DNA of 64,000 bases from Methanoculleus caldifontis. Lineage in GTDB: Archaea > Halobacteriota > Methanomicrobia > Methanomicrobiales > Methanoculleaceae. Every line of letters starts with the position of its first letter. The stretch's first letter is position 1. Below the pieces are notes generated by a model, which ran no database searches, had not been told where the DNA came from, and saw only the letters and a program-made list of their open reading frames with translations. The DNA is taken from NCBI RefSeq assembly GCF_032842345.1, contig NZ_WBKO01000001.1, positions 1,674,001 through 1,738,000 of the forward strand. Direction: 5' to 3'. Shown here piece after piece: positions 28,621 to 33,785 of the stretch. Position numbers and translations under genes: made by a program.

Positions 28621-28830
28621 ACTCTATCGGGATGCACGACGGAACCTATCCGCCGGGCTCCCGTACAGTTCACGCGGTACCTCTCCGTCCCGAGATCTGC
28701 GCTCCCGGGCACCGGAGTACCGAAAAATCGGGTCTTATTTGAGTGAGGATGCCGATATGCCGGTAAAACGGCCTCTCCTACGCCGGTGCACCATAAAGCA
28801 TTTATGACCCCTTCCATAACTATTCTATTA

Positions 28831-29280
28831 ATGAAGTGGCTGGCCTTCGGCGTCATGCTGATGCTGATATCCACTCTCGTCTTGCCCGTAGCAGCGGAGG
28901 GCGAGGAGCGGTACAGTTACATCACCGTTCAGGACGTTACCGTCCGGCTGGAGAACGAGGATGCTTTCGTCACCATGAACTATACGGTCGACGGCGGCAT
29001 CAAGTTTCTCGTTCTCCTCCTCGGAAAATCCGACCTGAGACAGAAGGCGCTCGGCATACTGAACTTCAACGATACGGAGGTCCGCCGTCTCGATCTCGAG
29101 TGTATCGAGGTGCGCGTCAACAACGTCTCCGATGATTACGGACGGGGATCCTACTGGTTCCCGGCGCACAGGTTCGGCGTGGTCGTGCCGTCGGTCACCA
29201 TCGTCACCCCGCACGACATCAAATACTACGAGAACATCAGCGAGTTCCCTGAAGGGTTCGGCTATTTTGCCGGGCAGTGA
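28831..29280 (+). CDS. Exported protein of unknown function, 149 aa
   Basis: From ATG 28831 the protein begins with a signal peptide (MKWLAFGVMLMLISTLVLPV, cut expected near VAA). The mature part of ~125 aa alternates beta strands and turns (YSYITVQDVTVRLENEDAFV, ECIEVRVNNVSDDYGRG, FGVVVPSVTIVTPHDIKYYE). A TATA-like gcatttatg about 28 bases before this ATG supports it as a leaderless start; an in-frame ATG at 28786 would hide the signal peptide. No family recognised. It probably acts at the outer surface or in the envelope space. Confidence 0.72.
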   Translation: MKWLAFGVMLMLISTLVLPVAAEGEERYSYITVQDVTVRLENEDAFVTMNYTVDGGIKFLVLLLGKSDLRQKALGILNFNDTEVRRLDLECIEVRVNNVSDDYGRGSYWFPAHRFGVVVPSVTIVTPHDIKYYENISEFPEGFGYFAGQ

Positions 29281-29324: not shown

Positions 29325-30002
29325 TTACGTTTTCGGCAGCAGCCCTATCTCCTCCAGGGCGCGGCGGGTATGACGGGCAACGGTCCCGTCTTTGGGCGAC
29401 GGCGCCACCTCGCGGCAGAGGCGGTCCAGATCGGCTGGCGTGTCGATGTCGTACCAGGGGTCAAGCAGGGAGACCGTGAGGTCCAGGCGCCCGGCAACCT
29501 CGACGGTCCGCTGCGTCACATGAGCCGAGCTCCAGGGGATGCCGGAGAAGAGGCGGGGGATGGATCCGTGCATCCCGATCAGGTAGTAACCGCCGTCGTC
29601 GCAGGGCCCGATGACGAGATCGCTCTCGCGGAGTCTCCGGAAGGCCTCCTCGATATACCGGCCGGGAAGGGTCGGGCTGTCGCTGTCACAGAGCACGGCC
29701 GCCGTTGCCCCCCGCGAGAAGAGCGCCTCTGCAACGGAGGCGAGGCGTTGCCCCAGGTCTCTGCCGGTCTGGGGGAGCATGGGGATCTCCGGGGGGACGA
29801 GCCCGGCGAGGTGCTCGCCCGGAGCCGGAGGCGTGTAGGCCACGAACGGGGCGATGCCATCGAGCCGGGCGAGACGGGCGATCGCGTCCTGGAGGAAACC
29901 GGTGTATAGCCGCGCCGCTTCCGGGGGCGTGAGCGGCGGGATGAGCCGCGTCTTCACCTCTCCCGGGACCGGCACCCGGGCCATAACGGCAGCCGCCTCC
30001 AT
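29325..30002 (-). CDS. rSAM-associated transferase 1 (TIGR04282 / DUF2064 nucleotidyl- or glycosyltransferase-like)
   Basis: 225 aa with a GT-A-like fold. Motifs: the N-terminus VMARVPVPGEVKTRLIPPLT, then DLGQRLASVAEALF, AAVLCDSDSPTLPGRYIEEA, LVIGPCDDGGYYLIGM and LDPWYDIDTPADLDRL. This is the TIGR04282 family, first named for linkage to radical-SAM genes and now often labelled arsenosugar-biosynthesis glycosyltransferase. Its ATG (30002) overlaps the methyltransferase TGA (TGATG), so it is coupled to it. Its usual partner, transferase 2, lies nearby at 31952. The true donor and acceptor are not known. Confidence 0.85.
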   Translation of the reverse strand: MEAAAVMARVPVPGEVKTRLIPPLTPPEAARLYTGFLQDAIARLARLDGIAPFVAYTPPAPGEHLAGLVPPEIPMLPQTGRDLGQRLASVAEALFSRGATAAVLCDSDSPTLPGRYIEEAFRRLRESDLVIGPCDDGGYYLIGMHGSIPRLFSGIPWSSAHVTQRTVEVAGRLDLTVSLLDPWYDIDTPADLDRLCREVAPSPKDGTVARHTRRALEEIGLLPKT

Positions 30003-30787
30003 CACTCTTTCCTGCCCACGACGCGGCACCTGCCGACCTTCCCCTCGTCGGCGGCCCTCGCCCAGAGGTCAAGGCCGCGCTCCACGTCCAGAAAGAGATC
30101 TATCCCGAAGAGCTCGACGATCCGCTCTTTCAGGTCGTTTGCGAGGGCGTCCTGATAACGGTGCAGGTGCGATGAGAACTCCCTGCTGAGGTCTTCGCAC
30201 CGCTCCACGACGAACCCGTGCCGCCGGAGCAGCCTCTGGTATCCGTTCAGGGTCTCCATGGAGGAAAAGAGCATGAAGGCGTTGAGGCTCTCGCGTTCAA
30301 CGTCGCCCATGGGCCCGGCCTCAATCCAGTCGGTGAAGGCGATCCTGCCGCCGGGAGCCGCTACGCGGCGGCACTCGCGTATTAGCCGGTCTTTATCGGT
30401 CACGTAGCACCAGGCGTCCTGCCCCCAGACAATATCGAACGTCCCCGATCGGAAGGGCATATCGAGGGCGTTCCCGAGCCGGAAGGCGACTCGATTGCTG
30501 AGGCCTGCGTCTGCGGTGCGTCTGACCGCCTCGTCCACCATCCGTCCCGTTGCATCGAGACCGGTCACCCTCGCGCCGTAGGTGCGTGCCAGGTGACGGG
30601 CAGGGCCCCCGAGACCGGAGAGGACGTCCAGCACCCGCGTGCCCGCATTCACGCCCGCAACCTCCGCGAGAATCCCGGTCTCCTCTCTCCCGCCGACATG
30701 GATCTCCTCGCCCATCAGCATCTCCCAGATCCTGCCCACAGGCCCCTCGTAGGCCGCAACGACGTCGCCGATGTTGATATCGGGCAC
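30002..30787 (-). CDS. SAM-dependent methyltransferase, class I, GSMT/UbiE-like
   Basis: 261 aa. SAM-binding motif I is VLDVLSGLGGPARHLARTYG, with VTGLDATGRMVDEAVRRTAD and the post-I acidic region, motif II FRSGTFDIVWGQDAWCYVTD and motif III VAAPGGRIAFTDWIE. The GLGGPARHLA form of motif I recalls glycine/sarcosine methyltransferases rather than arsenite methyltransferase ArsM, and the conserved ArsM cysteines are not apparent. GGAAGGTG lies 5 bases before ATG 30787. It sits 6 bases after the radical-SAM gene and overlaps the transferase 1 gene, so it belongs to that pathway. Substrate unknown. Confidence 0.85.
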   Translation of the reverse strand: MPDINIGDVVAAYEGPVGRIWEMLMGEEIHVGGREETGILAEVAGVNAGTRVLDVLSGLGGPARHLARTYGARVTGLDATGRMVDEAVRRTADAGLSNRVAFRLGNALDMPFRSGTFDIVWGQDAWCYVTDKDRLIRECRRVAAPGGRIAFTDWIEAGPMGDVERESLNAFMLFSSMETLNGYQRLLRRHGFVVERCEDLSREFSSHLHRYQDALANDLKERIVELFGIDLFLDVERGLDLWARAADEGKVGRCRVVGRKE

Positions 30788-30793
30788 CTTCCT

Positions 30794-31867
30794 TCACCTC
30801 CCGCCCGCCGCCCGCCAGCACTTCGGGTCGGGCCCCAGGGGGTCTCCGGTCTCGTAGTACGCCATCGCCCGGCAGCCCCAGCAGACGGAGTTCTGCTCAC
30901 ACCGGGCGCAGGCGGATGAGCTCGGGCCCTTCCGTCTCATCCCTGAAAAGAGCAGTTCGTCACGGTGATCCGTTACGATCTCGCAGAGTGTCCGGTCCCT
31001 GATATTCTTGAATCCCTCCCTGATGACCGAGCAGGGCGTAATGTCGCCGTCCACCGTCACGCAGATCGCGGTCCCGCAGTAGAATTTATCGACGTCCATC
31101 GTCCCGAACGAGCGGGGCGAGCCCGGGCAACAGATCGCGTCCCGTGCACGGCAGGCGTCGCGGATCTCGGCAACGGTCGGCACCCATTCCGGGCGGGAGC
31201 ATGCCCCGCCGACCGTGCACATCTGCGTCAGGCAGACCGTCATCCCGAGTTCCTCGCAGAAGTACCGCATCGTCCTCGCAAGGTCGCTCCCGGCAAGCGG
31301 CCGCGTGAACGTGATGCAGTTGACCAGCTCGCTCGCGGGTTTGCCGAAGGCCTGAAGGTTCTCGATACCGCGGCAGATCGCCCGTATCTTCTCCCGGGCA
31401 TCCCCATCGTGGAGCCGGGCATAGATCGCGGGGTCGAGGGTATCCAGGTGGACGGAGATGAAGCCGCCTTCCGTTACGGCGACGGCCTGCTCCGCGATAG
31501 AGGGATCGGCGAGCGGGATGCCGCTCGACCAGATGTTGTTGACGAGACCGAGATCCCGGGCCTGCAGTGCGAGATCGTGCCAGTCTCCGCGGGCCAGCGG
31601 GTCGCCTCCCAGCCAGTCGACGACTCTCACGCCCATCGCAGCCGCCGAGGTGAGGACGGCTGCGATATCGGCGGCGGGGAGTTCCCTGACCTGGCCGGCA
31701 TCGGGCGGGGCGTAACAGTAGCGGCACCCCTGCGGGCAGGCGAGGGTCGACTCGATCTGCAGCGAGTAGACCCGTTCCTCCTCAAAATAGCGCATCACGT
31801 CTCCTGCAGCGGGATGAAGGCAGCCCCGCGTGATGGCCGTATCGACGTTCCGTCCCTCATCGTTCAT
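30794..31867 (-). CDS. Radical-SAM protein with SPASM-type C-terminal cluster domain
   Basis: 357 aa. The radical-SAM cluster motif is CPQGCRYCYAPPDAG (C-x3-C-x2-C) at residue ~43, followed by VVDWLGGDPLARGDW (GGE-like motif) and FISVHLDTLDPAIYARLHDG. The C-terminal part holds more cysteines: FYCGTAICVTVDGDITPCSV and CARCEQNSVCWGCRAMAY ending KCW, as in SPASM/Twitch auxiliary cluster domains. It is the first gene of a three-gene minus-strand unit with a methyltransferase and transferase 1, divergent from transferase 2. It lacks the features of ArsS (DUF3641). The chemistry could be C-C or C-S bond formation on a peptide or small molecule; the product is unknown. Confidence 0.85.
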   Translation of the reverse strand: MNDEGRNVDTAITRGCLHPAAGDVMRYFEEERVYSLQIESTLACPQGCRYCYAPPDAGQVRELPAADIAAVLTSAAAMGVRVVDWLGGDPLARGDWHDLALQARDLGLVNNIWSSGIPLADPSIAEQAVAVTEGGFISVHLDTLDPAIYARLHDGDAREKIRAICRGIENLQAFGKPASELVNCITFTRPLAGSDLARTMRYFCEELGMTVCLTQMCTVGGACSRPEWVPTVAEIRDACRARDAICCPGSPRSFGTMDVDKFYCGTAICVTVDGDITPCSVIREGFKNIRDRTLCEIVTDHRDELLFSGMRRKGPSSSACARCEQNSVCWGCRAMAYYETGDPLGPDPKCWRAAGGR

Positions 31868-31951
31868 GGCAGCAGCCTCGCGAACACGCTCCTACCATGC
31901 GCATCATCATATATCTCGGTGACGGAGATGTGGCTGAGGAGAGGACTCTTC
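31868..31951. promoter_or_regulatory. Divergent promoter between the radical-SAM gene and transferase 2
   Basis: An 84-base gap with a TATA-like CATATATC near 31908-31915 that reads as a box on both strands. GAGGAGAGG at 31936-31944 is the ribosome site for ATG 31952. Shared control of both arms of the cluster is likely. Confidence 0.55.
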
Positions 31952-32644
31952 ATGCTCTCGATCGTCACGCCGGTGCTCAATGAGGAGGAGAATGTCCCCG
32001 CATTTCTGGCCCATATCGAGGCTCTCGAGGGACCGCTTGAGCTGATCGTCGTCGACGGCGGGAGCACGGACGGCACGTGTGCGGCACTCCGGGCGGCAGC
32101 GGGCTCGTTCTCCCGTCGAATCGCCGTGCTCTCCTCCCCGGCAGGGAGGGCCATCCAGATGAACGCCGGAGCCCGGCACGCCACGGGAACCGTTCTGCTC
32201 TTCCTTCACGCCGACTGCAGAATCGCTCCGGATGCCCCGGGTGCTATCGGTCGGGCGCTGGAAGAGGACGGGGTGATCGGCGGGGGTTTCCGTCATGCGT
32301 TTGAGAGTCGCGATCCCCTCCTCTCCCTGACGAGCTGGTTTGGGAACCTGCTGGCGGCGCGGACGCAGACCTTCTTCGGCGACTTCGGCATATTCATCAA
32401 AAAAGAGGCCTTCTTTGCGATCGGGGGATACGAGCCGCTCCCCTACCTGGAGGACGTGGAGTTCTCGCGGGCGGCACGCCGGTATGGAAGGCTGGTCCTG
32501 GCGGACCGTCCCATCGGCGTATCGCCGCGGCGGTATCTCGAGGTCGGGAAGTATCGCCTGAGCGCCGTCTACATCCTGGTGATGCTCCTCAACGTGGCCG
32601 GTATCAGGCCGAAGCGGTTCCTCCGCTACGTCGTTGATAAATGA
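31952..32644 (+). CDS. rSAM-associated transferase 2 (TIGR04283 family GT2 glycosyltransferase)
   Basis: 230 aa, GT-A fold family 2. Motifs: MLSIVTPVLNEEENVPAFL, LIVVDGGSTDGTCAALR, SPAGRAIQMNAGARHATG, LLFLHADCRIAPDA (the DxD-like HADC), FFGDFGIFIKKEAFFAIGGY and YLEDVEFSRAARRYG, all diagnostic of TIGR04283. The ATG 31952 start is preferred because of GAGGAGAGG 7 bases upstream; longer in-frame versions run back through the opposite-strand radical-SAM gene. The pairing with transferase 1 in one locus is typical of the rSAM-associated system. The C-terminal hydrophobic segment (VYILVMLLNVAGI) may associate with the membrane. Confidence 0.88.
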   Translation: MLSIVTPVLNEEENVPAFLAHIEALEGPLELIVVDGGSTDGTCAALRAAAGSFSRRIAVLSSPAGRAIQMNAGARHATGTVLLFLHADCRIAPDAPGAIGRALEEDGVIGGGFRHAFESRDPLLSLTSWFGNLLAARTQTFFGDFGIFIKKEAFFAIGGYEPLPYLEDVEFSRAARRYGRLVLADRPIGVSPRRYLEVGKYRLSAVYILVMLLNVAGIRPKRFLRYVVDK

Positions 32645-32660
32645 GGGGATGCCCGAACCT

Positions 32661-33785
32661 TCACGCGCCTCTCTTCAGCGGGACCGGCTCTCGCTCGTCC
32701 ACCCAGCGGCCGAGGAGCGACTGGAGGTAGACGCCGAAGAACGCGCAGAAGAGACCGCCGATCGTCGCGAAGATGATGTACTTCACTCCATCCGCACTCG
32801 TTATGGGGAAGCCGGGGATATCGCTGATCGAGAGGATGTAGATGCTCGCACCGTAGGCGATGGCCCCTATGGCGAGCACGAAGAACGGCAGGGCGACCAC
32901 CCGCTGGATCGCCTCCCGCTCGTTCAAGAAGACGTCGATGATCTTTCCAACCGATGCAACGAGGCCGGCGGCGGTGAACCAGATGATGGCACCGTAGATG
33001 AACGCGAGGATCTGGAAGAAGATGCCGAACGATGTGTAGTACTCAAGGAGGCTGATGAGGCCGAGGACCAGCCCGACGATCCCGAGCAGTATCGCGGCGA
33101 TATAGGAGACGAAGGTGAACCGGCCGCCGTGCAGCGACGACTTCAACGAAGTGACCAGGTAGCCGAAGACCTCGTCGATACCGACGCCCTTGAAGAGCAG
33201 GTAGGTGCCGATGACGCCGACGACGACGATGGTTGCCCCCTCGGGATACCCGAGCAGGTACCCGAGGGCATACAGGAGCATGGCGAGGCCGACCGGGACC
33301 AGCACAATCTTCGAGACCTTCGGGTCGTCGAGAAGCCGCTTGAGGATATAGTAGGTCCCTTCGAGGTTCGGCATCTGGTTGACCACGACCCGCCGCACGC
33401 TGCTGACCGGCACCCGGGACTGGATGATCGGGAGGACGTACTCGTCCTCGGCACCGTCCGTCACCAGGATGCAGGATGTGGAACCCGTTGCCGTGAGGAT
33501 CGTATCGATGTCCGCCGCAATCCTCCGGTCGCCCTCGAGCATGTTCATGTGGTTGCCGCAGAGGACGGCGACGGCGACCTCCTCCCCCCGCTTGACCAGG
33601 TCGTCGTAGAGCCGGATCGTCTCGAAGATCGCGTTGATGTCGGAGTCTTCGGGATCGGTCAGGGCAAGGGATGTGGCCGCATGGAGGCATGCCTCTCTGC
33701 CCACGATGGGACCATCGATCCGGGCTTTGAACCCCAGATCGTCATCGCGATCGACACAGAGGACGAGCGTCCGCTCTTTTGCCAT
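32661..33785 (-). CDS. DUF373 family integral membrane protein
   Basis: 374 aa. The N-terminal soluble domain (~1-150) begins with TLVLCVDRDDDLGFKARI and includes AVLCGNHMNMLEGDRRIAAD and VTDGAEDEYVLPIIQSRVP; the C-terminal part (~155-360) has about seven membrane helices. This is the archaea-specific DUF373 group, of unknown biochemical role; the Asp-rich N-terminus suggests metal or nucleotide binding. ATG 33785 matches the family start; an ATG four codons upstream sits directly against GAGGAG and is too close to it. It converges on transferase 2. Confidence 0.88.
   Translation of the reverse strand: MAKERTLVLCVDRDDDLGFKARIDGPIVGREACLHAATSLALTDPEDSDINAIFETIRLYDDLVKRGEEVAVAVLCGNHMNMLEGDRRIAADIDTILTATGSTSCILVTDGAEDEYVLPIIQSRVPVSSVRRVVVNQMPNLEGTYYILKRLLDDPKVSKIVLVPVGLAMLLYALGYLLGYPEGATIVVVGVIGTYLLFKGVGIDEVFGYLVTSLKSSLHGGRFTFVSYIAAILLGIVGLVLGLISLLEYYTSFGIFFQILAFIYGAIIWFTAAGLVASVGKIIDVFLNEREAIQRVVALPFFVLAIGAIAYGASIYILSISDIPGFPITSADGVKYIIFATIGGLFCAFFGVYLQSLLGRWVDEREPVPLKRGA

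Follow-up and report, generated by a model that had tools for sequence, protein, structure and literature searches.

A four-gene radical SAM, methyltransferase and transferase cassette from Methanoculleus caldifontis as a candidate small-molecule pathway with an arsenosugar-like layout

A cassette of four genes, encoding a transferase of the family TIGR04282 (T1), a class I SAM-dependent methyltransferase (MT), a radical SAM/SPASM enzyme (rSAM) and a GT2 glycosyltransferase of the family TIGR04283 (T2), is described here from a 64,000-nucleotide stretch of the archaeon Methanoculleus caldifontis (contig NZ_WBKO01000001.1), referred to below as the window. The four genes constitute one unit, in which the methyltransferase is not ArsM and the radical SAM enzyme is not ArsS, and it appears probable, at roughly 60%, that they serve a single small-molecule pathway with an arsenosugar-like layout. 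By analogy, the likely product is a sugar or nucleoside-type unit, methylated and radical-modified, which would be activated and attached to an acceptor. An earlier note, made from the sequence alone, had put the cluster forward as a candidate for an undescribed system, and no described system was matched in the libraries and literature searched. The arsenosugar-linked transferase pair is thus joined by two enzyme families for which no named model exists, the SPASM radical SAM enzyme and the methyltransferase.

All four genes lie within positions 29325–32644 of the window, where the earlier note had placed them. The minus-strand operon consists of rSAM (30794..31867; 357 aa), MT (30002..30787) and T1 (29325..30002; 225 aa), and T2 (31952..32644, plus strand; 230 aa) diverges from the rSAM side across a shared promoter region of exactly 84 bases (31868..31951). 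The compact arrangement proposed for the operon was recovered in detail, the rSAM and MT genes being separated by 6 bases and the T1 start and MT stop sharing one base in the sequence TGATG. This ATG at 30002 is most likely the true start of T1, in preference to the upstream GTG at 30029, while the start of T2 is the ATG at 31952, a longer reading frame from the GTG at 30965 being mechanical. The divergent region holds a TATA-like core, GCATCATCATATAAG in most relatives and GCATCATCATATATC in this genome, which is kept in 13 Methanoculleus loci and recognisable in both loci of a sister genus (g5). Differences per codon position (1/2/3) amount to 0.127/0.116/0.252 for rSAM, 0.154/0.126/0.279 for MT and 0.106/0.086/0.259 for T2, the lower values at the first two positions indicating constraint on these genes at the protein level. 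On either side of the cluster lies a convergent gene: a 164-aa ORF without a name, whose end is at 29280, and a DUF373 gene, whose end is at 32661; the former (28786–29280) has no Pfam or NCBIfam match and is conserved next to Alba in Methanoculleus.

Both transferase assignments made in the earlier note are sound, since T1 scores 185.8 bits against TIGR04282 (curated cut-off 134) and T2 202.8 bits against TIGR04283 (curated cut-off 182). T1 also matches PF09837 (DUF2064) with 109.8 bits (cut-off 25.8), corresponding to a CofC/MobA-like nucleotidyltransferase fold, and T2 matches PF00535 with 72.4 bits (cut-off 23.3), i.e. the family GT2. The TIGR04282/TIGR04283 pair is known by its linkage to arsenosugar synthesis; in the parts of the literature on their function that were covered, TIGR04282 is mentioned in passing and TIGR04283 is not.

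The methyltransferase reaches the cut-off of no named NCBIfam family, scoring 88.9 bits against NF041675 (sarcosine/dimethylglycine N-methyltransferase; far below the cut-off of 550) and 87.7 bits against NF045667 (DVU_1556 family methyltransferase; cut-off 155). Its structure, predicted by AF2 with a pLDDT of 94.8, falls into the fold group of the sarcosine/dimethylglycine N-methyltransferase, the phosphoethanolamine N-methyltransferases (PMTs) and RebM (Foldseek matches 2o57, 3bus and PMTs), with which it has the fold, motif I, the N-terminal substrate helix and a conserved tyrosine in common; the fold matches are thus N- and O-methyltransferases of small metabolites. The homologue alignment revealed the invariant motifs LMGExIHxGG, WGQDxWCY, AFTDW and VGR. 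The invariant Y13 corresponds in the alignment to Tyr19 of a phosphoethanolamine N-methyltransferase from Plasmodium, and the invariant Tyr128 occupies the position of the catalytic histidine of that enzyme, His132. The GLGGPARHLA motif, emphasised in the earlier note, does exist and is conserved; it corresponds, however, to the common SAM-binding motif I and is not diagnostic. All 22 aligned rSAM and MT homologues that were scanned matched the same families as the window proteins. The DVU_1556 family being the second-best match of MT, the TrsS/TrsM selenoprotein system was also considered; it was rejected, since rSAM did not match TrsS at E <= 1e-10.

Weaker MT paralogues exist in four Methanoculleus genomes (G000, G021, G024 and G033). 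They are without the IHxGG motif; the one of G000 lies outside the window at G000:C1:1645009-1645770 (locus L099), and those of G021 and G024 are 46–50% identical to the cassette MT and adjoin a proline-dehydrogenase-like gene. In the tree, the diverged paralogue groups with the cassette MTs of Methanoculleaceae. A TIGR04255 gene (L101, 3137–3919) adjoins an MT paralogue.

The radical SAM enzyme carries the core CxxxCxxC motif as C44/C48/C51 (PF04055, 51.1 bits, cut-off 29.5) and SPASM cysteines at positions 264, 269, 279, 320, 323, 329, 332 and 350, all conserved in the homologue alignment. The SPASM model TIGR04085 is matched at 27.3 bits (cut-off 27), with PF13186 reaching 19.3 bits, just below its cut-off of 21.5. 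No named subfamily model was matched at cut-off in the NCBIfam search; the core and SPASM cysteine pattern is common to the PqqE, AhbD, NirJ2 and TIGR04053 families, although against these rSAM scores 65–75 bits versus cut-offs of 381–500. None of its homologues was found on plasmids or viral contigs.

It could be asked, given the transferase scores above, whether the cassette is a genuine arsenosugar pathway with non-orthologous counterparts of ArsM and ArsS, in which MT would methylate arsenite and rSAM would adenosylate the product. Two further invariant cysteines of rSAM, C184 and C212, would suit this reading, as would the higher frequency of true ArsM in genomes with the cassette (12/17 versus 14/64, p = 0.0003, a value confounded by kinship). 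It is nevertheless quite unlikely. In an alignment with true ArsM of the same order, MT lacks the paired cysteines and the Cys-rich N-terminus (the earlier note had likewise found it to be without ArsM cysteines), its single invariant cysteine being C127; against the ArsM model NF008823 it scores 62.1 bits (cut-off 263), i.e. it is not ArsM by score. With ArsS defined as TIGR04167 above 300 bits, no genome among the 81 relatives has one, and the window rSAM does not match that model at E <= 1e-10, in agreement with the earlier view that it is not of the ArsS type. ArsM is above its cut-off in 26 of the 81 genomes; five cassette genomes, M. caldifontis included, are without it, and no ars genes were seen among the cassette neighbours read. 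The identity of MT with ArsM and of rSAM with ArsS, named in the earlier note as the finding that would speak against a separate system, is accordingly ruled out by score, cysteines and distribution.

The resemblance of the rSAM fold to SuiB/SkfB, together with weak matches to SPASM maturases of the PqqE/MftC type and the similarity of T2 to MftF (42.3 bits), brings to mind a RiPP or a mycofactocin-like redox cofactor, for which rSAM would modify a peptide, T2 would glycosylate it and MT would methylate the glycan. This is very unlikely: the cut-offs are missed (MftC 44.9/265 bits, MftF 42.3/280 bits), and mycofactocin or any other RiPP was rejected because the free stretches of 84, 6, 16 and 44 bases leave no space for a precursor peptide between or beside the genes.

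Evidence for a single unit comes from the distribution of the four genes, whose linkage is far above chance expectation. Among the 81 relatives, rSAM occurs in 17, each time next to the other three genes, so that the neighbourhood anticipated in the earlier note is indeed kept; both T1 and T2 are above cut-off in the same 17 genomes and in one more, G046. A sample of the phylum (~390 genomes) yielded 15 with rSAM. Exactly these 15 also have strong MT matches (E <= 1e-120), and T1 was found in them and in G046, i.e. in 16 genomes. The association between TIGR04282 and rSAM gives, with shared ancestry ignored, a Fisher p of 1.4e-16 among the relatives and of 4e-26 in the phylum sample. The genome G046 (L047, G046:C13) has a divergent T1/T2 pair near trehalose synthesis genes, without MT or rSAM, from which it follows that the two transferases can occur apart from the front end.

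The order rSAM-MT-T1 is found in every archaeal locus, and T2 is divergent in all loci of Methanomicrobiales. The earlier proposal of a related but different pathway in methanogens holds as far as the linkage and the non-ArsS, non-ArsM nature of the enzymes are concerned, its product being a matter of inference; the confinement to methanogens or Methanomicrobiales does not hold, the triad being present also in three archaeal families outside the order and in a Gemmatimonadetes MAG, where T1 precedes rSAM and MT. Among other Gemmatimonadota, 1/200 genomes was positive. Only a few links to cultured species can be drawn, including Methanoculleus sp. MH98A and M. sediminis. In the family f7 no T2 was seen beside the triad, nor was one seen on the contigs of G346, G387 and the Gemmatimonadetes MAG, which are short; two f7 genomes without T2 nearby have a different GT2 just downstream of the triad. 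Outside Methanoculleus, the loci occupy differing chromosomal sites; the path distances of rSAM, MT and T1 correlate (r = 0.79–0.90), and the loci of families outside the order fall among those of Methanomicrobiales in the trees, which together fits transfer of the whole unit. It should also be mentioned that an MttB-superfamily methyltransferase gene (L026, 2565–4010) directly adjoins the Gemmatimonadetes cassette and that a TIGR04255 gene (L044, 8203–9078) adjoins another one.

Within its own genus, the cassette is present in 13 of 35 genomes. Of the 13 cassette-less Methanoculleus sites examined, 7 still show degraded remains of one or both outer genes (T1 and T2) but no intact gene. In one genome (G015), the remains span ~330 bases, in which the T2 end is fused to that of T1. 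No examined genome keeps only two or three intact cassette genes at this site. It follows from these remnants that the cassette was most likely present here in the ancestor of Methanoculleus and has been lost repeatedly, as a whole unit. Taken together with its distribution, it appears to be a horizontally mobile and easily lost biosynthetic unit. With such natural losses inside a genus that can be cultured, comparative metabolomics offers a way to find the product.

This patchiness bears on two further explanations. The aminopentanetetrol lipid head groups, which are known with one, two or three methyl groups (PMC11346949; PMC6423904), are attractive for their close chemical analogy, 5-deoxy-5-dimethylamino-pentitol corresponding to the arsenosugar unit with nitrogen in place of arsenic, and MT belongs to a fold group of N-methyltransferases. 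These head groups are, however, characteristic of the whole order Methanomicrobiales (PMC2686161), whereas the cassette is restricted to 17/81 relatives plus a bacterium; the idea that it makes or methylates them is highly improbable and was rejected, the distribution being too patchy for an order-wide lipid. A surface glycan cassette, in which T1 and T2 would build a methylated or radical-modified sugar of an exopolysaccharide or S-layer without arsenosugar-like logic, agrees with a patchy, repeatedly lost accessory unit, with a GT2 replaceable by another GT2 and with the other glycan genes near some of the loci. It is still unlikely, as the cassette is not accompanied by polymerase, flippase or sugar-nucleotide genes and T1 is a member of the arsenosugar-linked family.

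For the preferred reading, i.e. one small-molecule pathway of arsenosugar-like layout, the sequence of steps and the sugar character of the product are both drawn from an analogy in gene content to the arsenosugar loci of bacteria. MT would methylate a small acceptor X, which is probably not arsenic, and rSAM would then introduce a carbon-centred modification into methylated X, perhaps, as in the case of ArsS, by attaching the 5'-deoxyadenosyl group of SAM to it. A sugar phosphate would be released by a phosphorylase encoded outside the cassette, the CofC/MobA-like T1 would activate it with a nucleotide, and T2, as a GT2 enzyme, would transfer the activated unit to an acceptor. For most enzymes of the SPASM type, the reaction is hydrogen abstraction from a peptide or small molecule; adenosyl coupling is therefore not what one would expect by default, and this step is regarded as possible but doubtful. 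Somewhat less likely still is a full non-arsenic counterpart of arsenosugars, with rSAM adenosylating a methylated N, S, Se or C acceptor and T1 and T2 making a new class of glycosides from the 5-substituted ribose.

Concerning the known systems, two bacterial arsenosugar loci, both reached through the T1 and T2 searches, offer the closest comparison. In Cupriavidus sp. KK10 (L137), one run of genes comprises an ArsM-like gene, ArsS (465.7 bits, cut-off 300), T2, T1 and an MTA phosphorylase (MTAP), and the Burkholderia glumae plasmid carries ArsS (450.1 versus 300), MTAP (454.9 versus 453), a T2-like stretch and T1. Adenosylation by ArsS has been reported (PMC12159101). These loci have the T1 and T2 families in common with the archaeal cassette, as well as the combination, within a locus, of a SAM methyltransferase with a radical SAM enzyme; the enzyme classes thus coincide except for the phosphorylase, with the methyltransferase and radical SAM enzymes being non-orthologous. 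Where the bacterial loci have ArsM, ArsS of TIGR04167 and MTAP, the cassette has a non-ArsM methyltransferase and a SPASM radical SAM enzyme, MTAP being absent from it and from its neighbours in the loci read (present in L136 and L137). A third arrangement is seen on a plasmid of Methylobacterium aquaticum (L135, 8983–14062), where a TIGR04282-like transferase, a GT87, a radical SAM enzyme, a GT2 and a PLP aminotransferase follow each other. As in the cassette, a transferase of the TIGR04282 type, a non-ArsS radical SAM enzyme and a GT2 thus occur in one run, but the aminotransferase stands in place of the methyltransferase, the T1 is below cut-off (123 bits) and the radical SAM enzyme is no close relative of rSAM (27% over 173 residues, E 0.008). 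The nearest model of the latter enzyme is, below cut-off, a tungsten-cofactor maturase. The combination of the transferases with differing radical SAM enzymes in the archaeal cassette and in the Cupriavidus, B. glumae and Methylobacterium loci suggests that the T1/T2 pair is a reusable back end, with a role beyond arsenic.
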